IMG/VR virus record: IMGVR_UViG_3300022689_000178
Span: 1 to 64,000 of that record
Direction: 5' to 3' (one strand)
From: a virus
Length of the DNA stretch: 64,000 nt
In this document: piece by piece, positions 4,644 through 20,339 of the stretch
Position numbering within the stretch: the stretch's first letter is position 1
Layout of the letters: every line of letters begins with the position of its first letter
The notes under the pieces: generated by a model
Database searches by the model: none
Seen by the model: only the letters and a program-made list of their open reading frames with translations
Told to the model about the DNA's origin: nothing
Made by a program: the position numbers and the translations under genes

Positions 4644-5762
4644 ATGTTAAAAATATTATATAGTTCGGCATCTTTTGTAAGTTTTGATTATTTAAAACAG
4701 ACTGCCAAGTCAATAGGTGGTTTACCTACTAATGTACAGGTTTCAAAAGGAATTAATCGTTTATTTGGAACGGTTGCGATGTCCGATTTATCTGGTGGGA
4801 GTGAAACGTATAGATGTGTATTTTTGAAAAATGATAGTGAATCGCAAGAAATTCAAAACTTAGAATTGTATGTAGATATATTATTAGATACGTTAGGCGA
4901 AGGATTTGATCCGCAAACATTAACTCCGGTCGATGGTGATAAATATATTGTTCCGGTAAATGCGATTAATGAATGGGAGGGATATGATGGTAAAATTGCA
5001 ATGTGGAATGATATGGAAAGTGTATGGAAATTTACATTTGATAATTTTTTTAATTTTGAATTTGCAAAAGAAATACCGGCAGATATTACCGTAAATGATC
5101 AATTGTATGAACAATCACAAGTCCAAATTGTAAATGATATATATGATTCTCCTTATGGAATTGATTTTGTGCCGGCAAATACAGATGTTAATAAATTAAG
5201 TATAGGTAATATACAAGCCGGAAAACAAGTTGCCTTATGGATAAAACGTATTGTAGAAAAATATTTAGTTCAATTAATTGATTTTAATGTTGCGGGTATT
5301 AATATAGATGAGGGAGGAATTGTTTTAGGTAATGGACAAACAGTAGTTTTGAAATTTAGTTACATTCTAAAAACTTCATACCAATTTGTATTAGATGATA
5401 GTTATTCTGTTAATGTTTCTACTCCATTAGTGATAAATACCGAAATGAAAACAAATGAAATTGGAGAAGAGGGATATACTAATTTACGATGTAATGTATT
5501 ATTCAAAAAAGATAATATTATTGTAGGTTCGGGTATTGATATGGATGTTGTATTTATGGGCGATACATACAATAATGTTCAAAGTTTAGAATATTTTGGA
5601 TTAGTTGGAGGTTTTCTTGCAGGCATATCGTTTAATGAGTCCGCCAATATTACATTATCTTTTAATAGTGCTGGTGTATATGATATTGATATTGATATTG
5701 TGGATTTATTGAATGATGAAAATATTTTATATACCGGAAATATGCATGTAATAGTTAGTTGA
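4644..5762 (+). CDS. Structural protein, probably tail periphery, 372 aa
   Basis: An all-beta soluble protein. The C-terminal 120 residues have the rhythm of an Ig-like or bacterial adhesin domain (GIDMDVVFMGDTY, then SFNSAGVYDIDIDIVDLL). It is the last gene before the terminator at 5799-5829 and lies 3 bases behind the fibre-like gene, so it may be a fibre accessory or fibre tip protein. No homologous family is recognised. Confidence 0.5.
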   Translation: MLKILYSSASFVSFDYLKQTAKSIGGLPTNVQVSKGINRLFGTVAMSDLSGGSETYRCVFLKNDSESQEIQNLELYVDILLDTLGEGFDPQTLTPVDGDKYIVPVNAINEWEGYDGKIAMWNDMESVWKFTFDNFFNFEFAKEIPADITVNDQLYEQSQVQIVNDIYDSPYGIDFVPANTDVNKLSIGNIQAGKQVALWIKRIVEKYLVQLIDFNVAGINIDEGGIVLGNGQTVVLKFSYILKTSYQFVLDDSYSVNVSTPLVINTEMKTNEIGEEGYTNLRCNVLFKKDNIIVGSGIDMDVVFMGDTYNNVQSLEYFGLVGGFLAGISFNESANITLSFNSAGVYDIDIDIVDLLNDENILYTGNMHVIVS

Positions 5763-16833: not shown

Positions 16834-16983
16834 ATGGACAAAGAAAAGATACAAAAACAGATTGACAAGAACAGGGCACTGATTGAGAAAGCTCTTGAAA
16901 TGAACGATACCGAAATGATGTACTACATAGTGCGAAGATTAGCCAAAGACAATGAAAGATTAATAGAAAAGCTAAAGAAATAA
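16834..16983 (+). CDS. Small coiled-coil protein of foreign composition, 49 aa
   Basis: ATG 16834 to TAA 16983. The product is a charged amphipathic helix pair (KIQKQIDKNRALIEKALEM and RRLAKDNERLIEKLKK), so a small dimeric coiled coil is likely. Codon use (gac, aac, ctg, gcc) differs from the backbone. The inverted-repeat element at 16996 follows it, the pattern of a gene cassette. No family recognised. Confidence 0.55.
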   Translation: MDKEKIQKQIDKNRALIEKALEMNDTEMMYYIVRRLAKDNERLIEKLKK

Positions 16984-16995
16984 TTTTTTATTATT

Positions 16996-17050
16996 GGTAG
17001 CAGTTAGTATAACACACCGTTTTAATGTGTGTTATACATTGTTAGCTGAC
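16996..17050 (+). repeat. Inverted-repeat element, cassette-separator type
   Basis: A perfect 11-bp stem, GTATAACACAC at 17007-17017 and GTGTGTTATAC at 17027-17037, encloses the 9-base loop CGTTTTAAT. It is flanked by GGTAGCAGTTAG and GTTAGCTGAC. Loop and left flank match the element at 9033-9092, while the stem sequence is entirely different. Confidence 0.7.
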
Positions 17051-17090
17051 TGGTGCGGATAATTTAGTACAAATCTTAATAAATGAACGA

Positions 17091-18074
17091 ATGATAGTAA
17101 AAGAAAAAATAGGGAGGGGGTTTTTATATTTTATGGACGTATTGGAGGGTTTAAAATTACTACTTGACAATAGCCAAGATTTAATAATAGTTGACCCACC
17201 TTATTACAAGACTGTAAATGAGAAATGGGATAAACAATGGAAGACCGAAAAAGAATATTTAGACTGGTGTAGATTATGGTTTGCTGAATGCGTAAGAGTA
17301 CTGAAAGACACAGGTAGTTTTTATTGCTATGGAAACTTTGACATACTGAGCAAACAAAAAGTATTGATATTTGATGATGCGCTGAACTTTAGGCAAAACA
17401 TTACATTAAACAAAGGATTGAAAAGTATTGCTGGAAGAACAAGCGACAAACTTAGAATGTTCCCGACTGCAAGTGAATACTTGGTGTTTTACACTAAACA
17501 AGAAATGTGGTTTGAAACACCCTTTTCAATTATTATGAAAAGACAAATGAAAGAAAAGGGATTAACTCAGATTGATATTTCTAAACTTATACTTTCACGA
17601 AATGGTAATTTAACTGGATGGGTGCATAATAAGATTAAGGGCATACAATTGCCAACAGCAGAGCAATGGAACAAAATATGCAATTTGTTTGAAATTAAAA
17701 ATGAATATGATTTATTGTGTGAAAGCTACGAAGAACAAAGGTTTACTTTTAACCTACCAACAGGACAAACCGATGTTTGGGATTTTACGCCCGACAAAGT
17801 TAGATTTGGAAATAAGACACAGAAACCACAAGACATAAGTAGAAGAATTATAAAAGCAAGTAGTAACGAAGAACAAAGTGTATTGATACCATTTGCAGGG
17901 AGTGGAAGTGAATGTGAAGCTTGCGAAGTATTGGGTAGAAATTGGACTGCGTTTGAGAATGACCAATTTAGCATTGACATTATACACGAACGATTTAAAA
18001 ACCTTAAAGCTTTTGAAAAAAGCAAAGAGCGTGGGCTTTTTTCTTTTACGGATGAACAGAACAAAGCTGATTAA
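17091..18074 (+). CDS. DNA methyltransferase, beta class, with internal HTH-like segment, 327 aa
   Basis: Motif IV DPPY at residues 35-38 comes first and motif I FAGSG near 267-271 comes last. This order (IV, target-recognition region, I) marks the beta group of N6-adenine/N4-cytosine methyltransferases. The intervening region holds a helix-turn-helix-like stretch (KGLTQIDISKLIL, then LPTAEQWNKICNLF), reminiscent of a Cro/C1-type domain. Composition is clearly foreign: GC richer, with no CCGG tetramer although the backbone is full of them. It lies between two inverted-repeat elements, so it may have arrived as a unit. It may modify phage DNA against host restriction. Confidence 0.8.
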   Translation: MIVKEKIGRGFLYFMDVLEGLKLLLDNSQDLIIVDPPYYKTVNEKWDKQWKTEKEYLDWCRLWFAECVRVLKDTGSFYCYGNFDILSKQKVLIFDDALNFRQNITLNKGLKSIAGRTSDKLRMFPTASEYLVFYTKQEMWFETPFSIIMKRQMKEKGLTQIDISKLILSRNGNLTGWVHNKIKGIQLPTAEQWNKICNLFEIKNEYDLLCESYEEQRFTFNLPTGQTDVWDFTPDKVRFGNKTQKPQDISRRIIKASSNEEQSVLIPFAGSGSECEACEVLGRNWTAFENDQFSIDIIHERFKNLKAFEKSKERGLFSFTDEQNKAD

Positions 18075-18222
18075 ATGCACCAACGTAGCACTTGCAGCTA
18101 ATGAAAATACACTTGCATAGTTTGATTTTTTGTGTAGTGCAACGGAACAAAAAACAAATTATGTCAAGTGTAATGTTATGAGTATTTTTATTTATTTTTC
18201 CGTTGTGCCATATAATATCAAA
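18075..18222 (+). repeat. Inverted-repeat element with shared loop sequence
   Basis: CAACGGAA at 18140-18147 pairs with TTCCGTTG at 18198-18205. The left part has CTTGCAGCTAATG, like the other elements. Bases 18177-18197 are identical to 19738-19758 in the element after the fifth small gene, while the arms outside differ. Confidence 0.55.
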
Positions 18223-18447
18223 ATGAAAAATACAATAACGATAAATAATATAGAATTTGAAATAGGAACTATAAGTATAAATGAATTTGGCGGGCAAACA
18301 GTGTCCTCATTAATTGTTGGTGTTTATGCTGAAAACAAGGATCAGAATATATTTGTAAAACATAATGTATTCAACAGTACAATAAAAAACTTAGAATTAT
18401 TGAAAGATATTTTAACCGTTTTAACTACAAAAAAATATGATTTTTAA
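18223..18447 (+). CDS. Hypothetical protein, 74 aa
   Basis: ATG 18223 is chosen because upstream in-frame starts (18130, 18178) fall inside the inverted-repeat element. The product has an N-terminal hairpin (MKNTITINNIEFEIGTI), a Gly-rich turn and a C-terminal helix. It belongs to the foreign segment. No family recognised. Confidence 0.5.
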   Translation: MKNTITINNIEFEIGTISINEFGGQTVSSLIVGVYAENKDQNIFVKHNVFNSTIKNLELLKDILTVLTTKKYDF

Positions 18448-18508
18448 AACAGGTTTTTCAAATAAATTAATGTCGAAAAAGAAAATATAAACTTTTAAAT
18501 AAATAAAA

Positions 18509-18853
18509 ATGGAAAGTATAAAAATAGAAATTGATAGAAAAAACATTCTTGATATTGTAAATAATAAAGTGTCGGAAAATATTTTATCTTATATGGACAA
18601 AAATATGGAAGATATTAATAAAAGTATTGAGAAATATTTTAAGTTATCTTTTTTTCAGGATAAAAAAACACAGTTTGAAAATGCACTCGATTGGACAATT
18701 GAAGATGCTTTTAGAGAAGGAATAAAGACAGCTATGGAGGATTTAAAATTCAAAGAACTTATTGCCGAAAAAGCAAAAGAAATTTTAACAAATGATGATT
18801 TTATTAAAGAATTAGCTGTTGCAAAAGTCAAAAGTTCGCTTGGTTTACATTAA
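18509..18853 (+). CDS. Hypothetical helical protein, 114 aa
   Basis: A soluble, charged, almost wholly helical protein (for example AFREGIKTAMEDLKFKELIAEKAKEIL split over two helices). Similar small proteins occur in phages and integrated elements, but I cannot name a family. An inverted-repeat region follows it. Codon use is between that of the backbone and of the clearly foreign genes. Confidence 0.5.
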   Translation: MESIKIEIDRKNILDIVNNKVSENILSYMDKNMEDINKSIEKYFKLSFFQDKKTQFENALDWTIEDAFREGIKTAMEDLKFKELIAEKAKEILTNDDFIKELAVAKVKSSLGLH

Positions 18854-18931
18854 CCATAACGGCTACTTGTAAGAATAGTAGCAGAATTGAAACACGAATA
18901 TTGAAATAATTACAAACTTAAATACAATGGT

Positions 18932-18990
18932 AGCAGCTAAAAAGACCCTATAACCTGCTATTATTTTTACAAATTGTTATAGGGCGTTTA
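18932..18990 (+). repeat. Inverted-repeat element, cassette-separator type
   Basis: CCCTATAAC at 18946-18954 pairs perfectly with GTTATAGGG at 18976-18984, with a 21-base loop. The left flank GGTAGCAGCTA resembles GGTAGCAGTTA of the 16996 element. The preceding gene-to-element stretch (18854-18931) has no gene that I can support. Confidence 0.55.
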
Positions 18991-19001
18991 TTTTAAAAAT
19001 T

Positions 19002-19199
19002 ATGATTGCAAAAAAAAAAGGAATAGAAATATTTCACAAACATTGGGATGAAGGATTATCTGATAGACAAGCAAAGGAATGTGCCTTAATAAGTGTTGGT
19101 GAAATTATTAAAGAATATGACGAAGAAATATTGGAATCTAACGATGTATATCGACAGCAATATTGGATAGAAGTAAGGGATTATTTAAATGCCCTATAA
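19002..19199 (+). CDS. Hypothetical protein, 65 aa
   Basis: A small helical acidic protein (HWDEGLSDRQAKECALISVGEII). The stop overlaps the first bases of the next inverted repeat, as in integron-type cassettes where the gene runs to the edge of the recombination site. Composition is foreign. No family recognised. Confidence 0.5.
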   Translation: MIAKKKGIEIFHKHWDEGLSDRQAKECALISVGEIIKEYDEEILESNDVYRQQYWIEVRDYLNAL

Positions 19200-19296
19200 C
19201 GACAGGGGTTGGAGGCGGTTTTTTGCTTTGCAATTTTGCGAAGTGAAACGAGCAAATGTAAAGTTTAAAACTGACTTCCAAACCTCTGTTAGCAAC
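19195..19296 (+). repeat. Large attC-like inverted repeat
   Basis: The left arm TAACGACAGGGGTTGGAGGC (19197-19216) pairs imperfectly with the right arm GACTTCCAAACCTCTGTTAGC (19273-19292, given here up to GTTA). Unpaired bases are scattered through the stem. The ends TAAC and GTTAGC match the R-box pattern of integron attC sites, and total length (~100) fits. No integron integrase is in the window. Confidence 0.5.
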
Positions 19297-19343
19297 ACTT
19301 TTTTTTATCTTATCGAAATACAAACATTTTAAATATAAATATT

Positions 19344-19670
19344 ATGAATACAGAATTGTACGATAAAGCATGGGAATTACTTGAAAGAAAAGGCTTAAAA
19401 CTTGGCGAAAGAATAATGGTAAGAAGTTGTTTTGCAGGTGCTTACAAAAATGATTATCCTTTCATTGCCGCTAAACATAAAAAAGGCGAAGTTGAATATT
19501 ATCATTCTCAAATAAAAGAAATAAACAATTTAATGTTTAAATCTAAAAATGAAGTAATAATGGCAAATGCTATTTATGAAAACACAAAAGAGAATTTCAA
19601 TCAAAATGATTTTATTCAGCATTTAAAATTTACTTTTAGAATTTTGGGTGTTAGTAGCGACTGGTGTTAG
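19344..19670 (+). CDS. Hypothetical protein, 108 aa
   Basis: A soluble protein with an N-terminal helix (ELYDKAWELLERKGLKLGE), a Cys in MVRSCFAGAYK and a helical remainder. It lies between two inverted-repeat elements and has no CCGG tetramer. Its C-terminus runs into the next element. No family recognised. Confidence 0.5.
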   Translation: MNTELYDKAWELLERKGLKLGERIMVRSCFAGAYKNDYPFIAAKHKKGEVEYYHSQIKEINNLMFKSKNEVIMANAIYENTKENFNQNDFIQHLKFTFRILGVSSDWC

Positions 19671-19770
19671 TTGTTGCTAACGTAATTTGCTTTATTTCTG
19701 TTTTTGATGTATGAAAAAATTAAATTAAAGCAAATGATATGAGTATTTTTATTTATTTCATTTGCAAGTT
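19671..19770 (+). repeat. Inverted-repeat element with shared loop sequence
   Basis: TAATTTGCTTTA at 19683-19694 pairs with TTAAAGCAAAT at 19725-19735, and GCAAATGA at 19730-19737 pairs with TCATTTGC at 19758-19765. The 21 bases 19738-19758 equal 18177-18197. It is the last element of the array; CCGG-bearing backbone sequence resumes at 19801. Confidence 0.55.
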
Positions 19771-19793
19771 TTAAAAATAAATAAATTTCGTAA

Positions 19794-20339
19794 ATGGATA
19801 TACCGGAAAAAATAAAGGCATCCGATTTTCAAGAAATGATTAGTAAGGGAATCATTAATGTAGATGGCAAAAGAATAACACAAACTAAATTATTGCCCGA
19901 ATATGAAAAGTATATTGAAAAAGAAAATCAATGTAAACAATCAGAAACAAATAAATACTTATTGATTGAATTTGAGGTATATCTTGAAAAAAAATATGAA
20001 TGGAAAAAAAAGAAAGGACAAACAGTTGAAGTATTATTTAACGTCTTAGGTAATACAAAAAGAAAATTTAGAGCAGATTATTACATTCCAGAAATAAAAA
20101 CAATTATTGAAATAAATGGTGGAGAATTTGGTTACCCGGTTGTATGTAATAATTGCGGAAATCATGTTAAAAATAAAAAAGGGAAACAAGTATTTTCTCA
20201 AGGTGGACGGCATACCAGAGGTGGCGGAGGCTATGAGAATGATTTATATAAAATGAATTTGTCTCAAAAAATGAATTTAAAGTATTATCAATTTACATAT
20301 AAGCAATTAAAACAACGAATTTATAAAAAATTTATATAA
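19794..20339 (+). CDS. VSR-like phage endonuclease with inserted zinc knuckle, 181 aa
   Basis: The fold signature is that of small phage VSR/PD-(D/E)XK nucleases: FRADYYIPEIKTIIEINGG holds the catalytic Asp and the E-x-N (canonical E-x-E/K) strand, and GGRHTRGGGYENDLYKMN is the strongly conserved second half, followed by YYQFTYKQL. Between the two halves lies an insertion with CNNCGNH, one Cys-x2-Cys pair plus His, which suggests a metal-binding loop. Such proteins may resolve branched DNA or nick mismatches. The first ~75 residues are specific to this protein. Confidence 0.7.
   Translation: MDIPEKIKASDFQEMISKGIINVDGKRITQTKLLPEYEKYIEKENQCKQSETNKYLLIEFEVYLEKKYEWKKKKGQTVEVLFNVLGNTKRKFRADYYIPEIKTIIEINGGEFGYPVVCNNCGNHVKNKKGKQVFSQGGRHTRGGGGYENDLYKMNLSQKMNLKYYQFTYKQLKQRIYKKFI

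Follow-up and report, generated by a model that had tools for sequence, protein, structure and literature searches.

What are the imperfect hairpins that separate small genes in the virus record IMGVR_UViG_3300022689_000178, and do the genes between them move one at a time? The stretch analysed here (the window) comprises bases 1-64,000 of this 76,824-base record, which is classed linear; phage-type genes are present in the window, and the capsid-like protein of the record shares at most 27% identity with known phages. Five imperfect hairpins that resemble the attC sites of integrons, here called W1 to W5, occur at window positions 16,995-19,738, with small genes between them that form a tandem run in one orientation. 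We are fairly confident that this segment of a Bacteroidota phage forms an array of gene cassettes of the integron type that has no integrase of its own and is most likely mobilised in trans by a host recombinase. Each unit comprises a small gene and a recombination site that folds, and neighbouring units meet at an AAC/GTT box, with the outer bases contributed by different cassettes. Most likely, a host tyrosine recombinase belonging to the family that lies at the ends of Bacteroidota chromosomal arrays recombines the sites as folded single strands, and units such as a DNA methyltransferase gene would be gained, lost or exchanged singly.

Folded sites between the small genes

By blastn against 50,697 phage records, we obtained two matches: W3 in Cellulophaga phage phi19:3 (75% identity), and a 38-bp core of W1 that is 95% identical to an intergenic site of Tenacibaculum phage JQ, which carries an array of small genes with related sites between them. 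A covariance model, R1, was built from 15 short sites of JQ, other viral contigs and one Bacteroidetes metagenome-assembled genome (MAG), with the window excluded. Stem covariation in this 15-site alignment was 0.550, compared with 0.167 ± 0.028 in shuffles, with 43 doubly changed cells versus 14, and one stem position holds a G.T pair in 13 of the 15 sites. Run with its filters off, R1 placed W1, W3 and W4 as the three best matches in window 15-22 kb. Rfam, searched at the gathering threshold, returned no match.

All five sites are directly observed on the + strand. W1 (16,995-17,047) is of the short type and scored 46.6 bits with R1, with an E of 2e-7 over 278 kb and 6e-8 in another search. 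W2 (18,100-18,177) was recognised by its fold, which runs AAT...GTT with the stem TACACTTG/CAAGTGTA. W3 (18,858-18,978, 121 nt), second in the R1 ranking, is of the long type with both boxes intact, and scored 40.5 with a site scanner. W4 (19,198-19,290), third in the ranking, likewise has both boxes intact, and W5 (19,679-19,738) was found by a fold with a z-score of -4.0 for 19,645-19,790. The + strand folding z-scores of W1 to W5 are, in order, -2.5, -3.6, -0.35, -3.3 and -4.0; W3 is thus not special by energy alone, and the evidence for it is its homology together with its cassette arms.

A sequence-only reading of the window had listed five such elements. All of them exist, with several limits redrawn: the element placed at 18075 is the site at 18,100-18,177, and the one at 18932 is real but merely the 3' half of the 121-nt W3. 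The TAAC/GTTAGC ends described for the element at 19195 belong to W4. The 21 bases reported as shared between 18,177-18,197 and 19,738-19,758 lie immediately 3' of two sites, at the start of the next cassette or flank; the 20 nt directly 3' of the W2 box (18,178-18,197, +) and the second copy after W5 (19,739-19,758, +) make up repeat family D1. A reported match of the form GGTAGCAG(T/C)TA is also real but is lacking from the phi19:3 homologue of the site (TAGCCACTA); chance may account for it.

Ordinary intergenic hairpins, acting as terminators or stabilising mRNA, could in principle converge on such a pattern in AT-rich phage DNA; every element does lie between co-directional genes, and a terminator role is possible for some sites. 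We consider this origin extremely improbable, given the conserved AAC/GTT boxes, the quantised site lengths (about 41-58, 84 and 118-124 nt) and the covariation with its conserved G.T pair. Recognition by shape, as the sequence-only reading had proposed, would be in keeping with that covariation and with the analogy to attC. There are also hints that a folded single strand may be the recombinase substrate: the conserved G.T pair, and the strand bias of W4, which folds at -19.0 kcal/mol (z -3.29) on the + strand versus -11.0 kcal/mol (z -0.06) on the - strand.

Cassette arms and the limits of shared units

An integron site takes its outer bases from two different cassettes, and each cassette starts and ends with sequences complementary to one another. 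We called sites by stem and boxes alone and compared the arms afterwards, in 45 cassettes. Mean pairing was 5.27 of 7 positions for the two arms of the same cassette, 2.57 for the two arms of one site and 2.52 for unrelated arms. Same-cassette arms paired at six or more of seven positions in 25 of the 45 cassettes, compared with a maximum of 8 of 45 across 20,000 permutations (P 5e-5). The arms therefore pair across the gene and not within the hairpin, which contradicts an ordinary-hairpin origin. A scan for perfect arms missed the sites, since every site combines arms from two cassettes. The sequence-only reading had remarked on stems that differ completely yet pair perfectly; this is correct, and is mostly due to the arms being specific to each cassette.

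Within the window, the arms of cassette C (18,977-19,199, +; TTATAGGGC/GCCCTATAA) and cassette D (19,289-19,680, +; TTAGCAACA/TGTTGCTAA) fit fully, and those of cassette A (17,042-18,099, +) fit as TTAGCTG/CAGCTAA. Cassette A spans the DNA between the W1 and W2 boxes and carries a gene for an N6_N4 DNA methyltransferase of 327 aa (17,091-18,074, +; Pfam PF01555, E 2.1e-28). Phage-borne orphan methyltransferases shield phage DNA from restriction. A homologous cassette in viral contig L130 is 85% identical over 17,040-17,332 and 91% over 17,847-18,101, and the similarity (17,040-18,101) begins at the GTT box of the preceding site and stops at the AA in the box of the next one; the neighbouring sites on either side are unrelated. 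The middle of the methyltransferase gene (17,332-17,847) is replaced between the two and is probably the target-recognition part, which suggests that this part has been swapped.

The same limits were observed directly in other pairs. Viral contigs L091 and L109 share 313 bases at 91% identity, beginning at the AACG of one site and ending at the AAC of the next, and the sequences shared by JQ and L025 and by L038 and L064 also end at AAC, the same 3' limit. Homologous cassettes in unrelated contigs are similar only up to the AAC/GTT boxes. Units are bounded at G|TT, which reads AA|C on the complementary strand, and the outer box halves come from different cassettes. The idea of single-gene mobile units, raised by the sequence-only reading, agrees with this, as single units are met again in other neighbourhoods and break off at the boxes, which also argues against ordinary hairpins. 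A narrower version, in which gene plus following site formed the mobile unit of phages and from which a polarity was read, was dropped because the shared segments carry the preceding site, which travels with the gene in L091/L109, JQ/L025 and L038/L064.

Units could also move by ordinary homologous recombination between similar hairpins, with no site-specific enzyme. Short site sequences are common to different phages, and phages recombine readily. We think this unlikely, since the window and L130 have exchanged a unit whose flanking sites are unrelated, and since the arms follow the cassettes and not the sites.

Host arrays and their recombinase

No tyrosine recombinase was found in the phage itself: PF00589 had 0 matches in the whole 76.8-kb record, of which, as it is linear, part may be missing. 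The sequence-only reading had noted this absence and pointed to a host enzyme. We searched 247 Bacteroidota genomes with R1 under strict filters and obtained matches in 18 at E <= 0.01; the sites anticipated in host genomes are indeed there, in long chromosomal arrays. Given these arrays and the units that are met again in other neighbourhoods, neither of the outcomes that would have overturned the sequence-only reading holds. Genome G199 has 15 sites over 46.6 kb, G135 nine over 16.5 kb and G235 seven, with shorter arrays in G089, G141 and G159. The arrays of G135, G199 and G089 each end at a tyrosine recombinase gene, which lies on the strand opposite to the sites. Homologues of the G135 recombinase occur at E <= 1e-40 in 80 of the 247 genomes, and 18 of the best 30 recombinase loci have an opposite-strand site on the 3' side of the gene within about 1.5 kb (one has a site on the 5' side), against a scanner background of 0-2 sites in Markov shuffles of these 30 loci and one site in 146 kb of array-free G135 DNA. 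A Rufibacter tibetensis plasmid (NZ_CP012644) carries the recombinase followed by six or seven sites. Comparison of G077 with G112 shows that the recombinase-side site is conserved while the cassette side diverges exactly at AAC; in this one genome pair, a site that is itself attC-like stays with the recombinase while the sequence past AAC changes. Sites beside a recombinase are a further point against ordinary hairpins. The host offers a candidate enzyme adjoining its own arrays, which may act on the phage sites as well; the acting enzyme, the recognition of single strands, the direction of transfer and the benefit to the phage are inferred.

The sites are polar. Relative to the site strand used here, all 33 cassette genes of the phage arrays and one MAG contig are co-oriented, whereas 25 of 27 genes in the host arrays, and the recombinase with them, have the opposite orientation. 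As units are delimited at AAC on that strand and at G|TT on its complement, the order in hosts is that of an ordinary integron: recombinase, gene, site. Phage cassettes would then have the gene inverted relative to the site, and the best-folding strand would correspond to the classical bottom strand, judging from one clear case, W4. A start codon in the loop from which a reading frame extends for 25 codons or more beyond the box was found in 10 of 35 long phage sites versus 3 of 38 in hosts.

The best matches of the array-side recombinase among solved structures are XerA/XerC-like proteins and IntI4. It scores 218-237 bits with NF040815 (cut-off 220) and 196-228 bits with TIGR02249 (cut-off 265). 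When aligned to IntI4 (2A3V), residues 182-241 face only 18 query residues, so the additional domain of IntI is missing, and an N-terminal extension of about 100 residues is present. This additional domain is reported as required by IntI (PMC9668308). A tree of 43 proteins separates the array-side recombinases from the XerC/D-like ones of the same genomes (100/100); the two further G135 recombinases matched by TIGR02249 have XerC/D-like scores and lie outside the array-side group. We lean slightly towards a class of integron proper to Bacteroidota, with recombinases that lack the IntI additional domain and an attC-like hairpin beside the recombinase as insertion site, alongside a separate pool of phage cassettes whose genes are inverted relative to their sites, sometimes with the start codon inside the site.

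Several observations weigh against a mobile array driven from the host. Three window sites have one damaged box each: the 5' box of W1 is degenerate, with no AAC; the first box of W2 reads AAT, where the L130 homologue has AAC; and the last box of W5 is GAT in place of GTT. The arms of cassette B match in only five of seven positions, and cassette A is joined in the window to other sites than in L130. No closely related phage with an empty site was found: the proteins designated 19344 and 20380 had no viral relatives, and those of the helicase are only 31-43% identical. A convergent site within 1.5 kb is absent in 12 of the 30 recombinase loci, some of which are clipped by contig ends. The array-side recombinase is about 42 residues short where IntI has its additional domain, and recombination of the sites is itself deduced from sequence.

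These damaged boxes raise the possibility of a relic, in which cassettes captured once by integron-type recombination are now fixed and immobile phage genes, kept for expression or counter-defence. A mutated box in three of five window sites and the lack of a recombinase in the record would fit such a relic, and cassettes A, B and D, each adjoining a damaged box, may be fixed by now. Two of the five window sites (W3 and W4) are nevertheless fully intact, other phages share units at 77-91% identity, and the record carries a second, larger cassette array with intact boxes (67.5-76.4 kb), so we regard a relic as a serious but doubtful alternative to host-driven mobility.

The second array lies at 67.5-76.8 kb, beyond the window, and reaches the end of the record. 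Its locus (L192, 66.5-76.8 kb of record G000) contains about nine or more sites, with R1 matches at 67.5, 67.9, 71.2, 73.2 and 74.5 kb and further sites found by the scanner, and includes a second methyltransferase-like gene. Its cassette region also encodes a 308-aa protein (L192 4467-5393), which we take to resemble a Fibrobacter succinogenes major paralogous domain protein.

Known systems and further observations

An integrase-less phage array is already known in kind. Qi et al. described, in virulent phages, clusters of attC sites lacking an integron integrase (CALINs), among them one in the methyltransferase-bearing Polaribacter phage P12002L; they recombined P12002L_attC2 with attI1 using IntI1, and noted that phage methyltransferases guard against restriction (Qi et al. 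2023, PMC9892861). With R1, we found five sites around the P12002L methyltransferases (E 6e-10 to 4e-5). Like the window, this flavobacterial phage has tandem small genes and DNA methyltransferases with attC-like sites between them and no integrase, and the window array shows the hallmarks of a CALIN: folded attC-type sites, split outer boxes, one gene orientation and no adjacent integrase. The two cases differ in that the P12002L sites were treated as integron components recognised by IntI, whereas those described here are tied to Bacteroidota arrays with another recombinase, and the phage genes here run opposite to the host genes relative to the sites.

The host arrays share with IntI integrons (TIGR02249) the cassette array, the folded AAC/GTT sites, the G|TT boundary and a tyrosine recombinase at one end. 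Unlike in a complete IntI integron, the recombinase lacks the IntI-specific additional domain, scores below the cut-off, is extended at its N terminus and points towards the array. In Treponema integrons, intI is also transcribed towards the array (PMC3607928), so that integrase and cassette genes run in the same direction as in the Bacteroidota host arrays; these integrons use IntI, however, and the recombinase family and sites differ. The array-side recombinases score around the cut-off of the XerA-like family NF040815 ('site-specific tyrosine recombinase/integron integrase'), but this name states neither a cassette array nor a partner site, and the array-side genes form their own clade. Integrons have been described as rare in Bacteroidetes, with only In0 in an earlier survey and then one complete integron in Salinibacter, and IntegronFinder 2.0 finds them nearly absent (PMC9024848). 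We found no published description of the Bacteroidota host arrays with their recombinase, in a search that left subscription journals and preprints outside. If the arrays work, a large phylum has overlooked platforms of cassette exchange, and its phages carry cassettes, including methyltransferases, as movable counter-defence genes; the array-side recombinases would also call into question the need for the IntI additional domain in cassette recombination.

Related recombinases occur in other settings. TnpF, encoded next to tet(X3) on plasmids of Acinetobacter and others (L285, pHH1107 5052-5717; L284), shares 53% identity with the array recombinase of G135 in its catalytic part and belongs to the clade of that enzyme (99/97), where it is sister to G077. 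Around tet(X3)-TnpF, no believable site was found; the clade membership may bear on how tet(X3) moved. A phage-like record (L291, G396:C1 28010-39872) has a cassette array and, immediately behind it and similarly oriented, a 274-aa tyrosine recombinase of its own. Solo tyrosine recombinase genes of 298-305 aa at G199:C1 2683592-2699000 and in other copies start just after sites ending GTT|GAACTAAA and are possibly an element that targets the sites in the manner of IS1111-attC elements. The placement of the phage G396 and solo G199 copies in the tree is unsure owing to two long branches.

The pattern CTATATACGGTGTT, searched in viral contigs, gave 120 stretches that were mostly chance, with about a dozen true arrays, and a gapped pattern had no match in genome contigs. 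The array DNA, searched against plasmids, matched none. An identical cassette start, TTGTATGTCTGGTGCGACTTTAAAGCACAAAA, is present in P12002L (L283, minus strand) and in a Bacteroidetes MAG (L125 1200-1290), with different methyltransferases behind it. The arm CCCTATAAC of cassette C occurs at 18976 and 19192, with a third copy at 18946 inside W3, and the phi19:3 homologue of W3 has the same three-arm arrangement in different letters; the third copy was dropped as a meaningful feature, being confined to W3 and this homologue.

The remaining genes of the segment, all on the + strand, are short. A 49-aa open reading frame (16,834-16,983) precedes the first site, is a possible cassette gene and has no Pfam family above the cut-off. 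Cassette B holds reading frames of 74 aa (18,223-18,447) and 114 aa (18,509-18,853), neither of a known family; cassette C holds one of 65 aa (19,002-19,199) and cassette D one of 108 aa (19,344-19,670), both likewise without a known family. Apart from the methyltransferase, none of these genes has an assigned function. After W5 comes a 181-aa reading frame (19,794-20,339) with no Pfam family, which may be either one more cassette gene or a regular gene of the phage.

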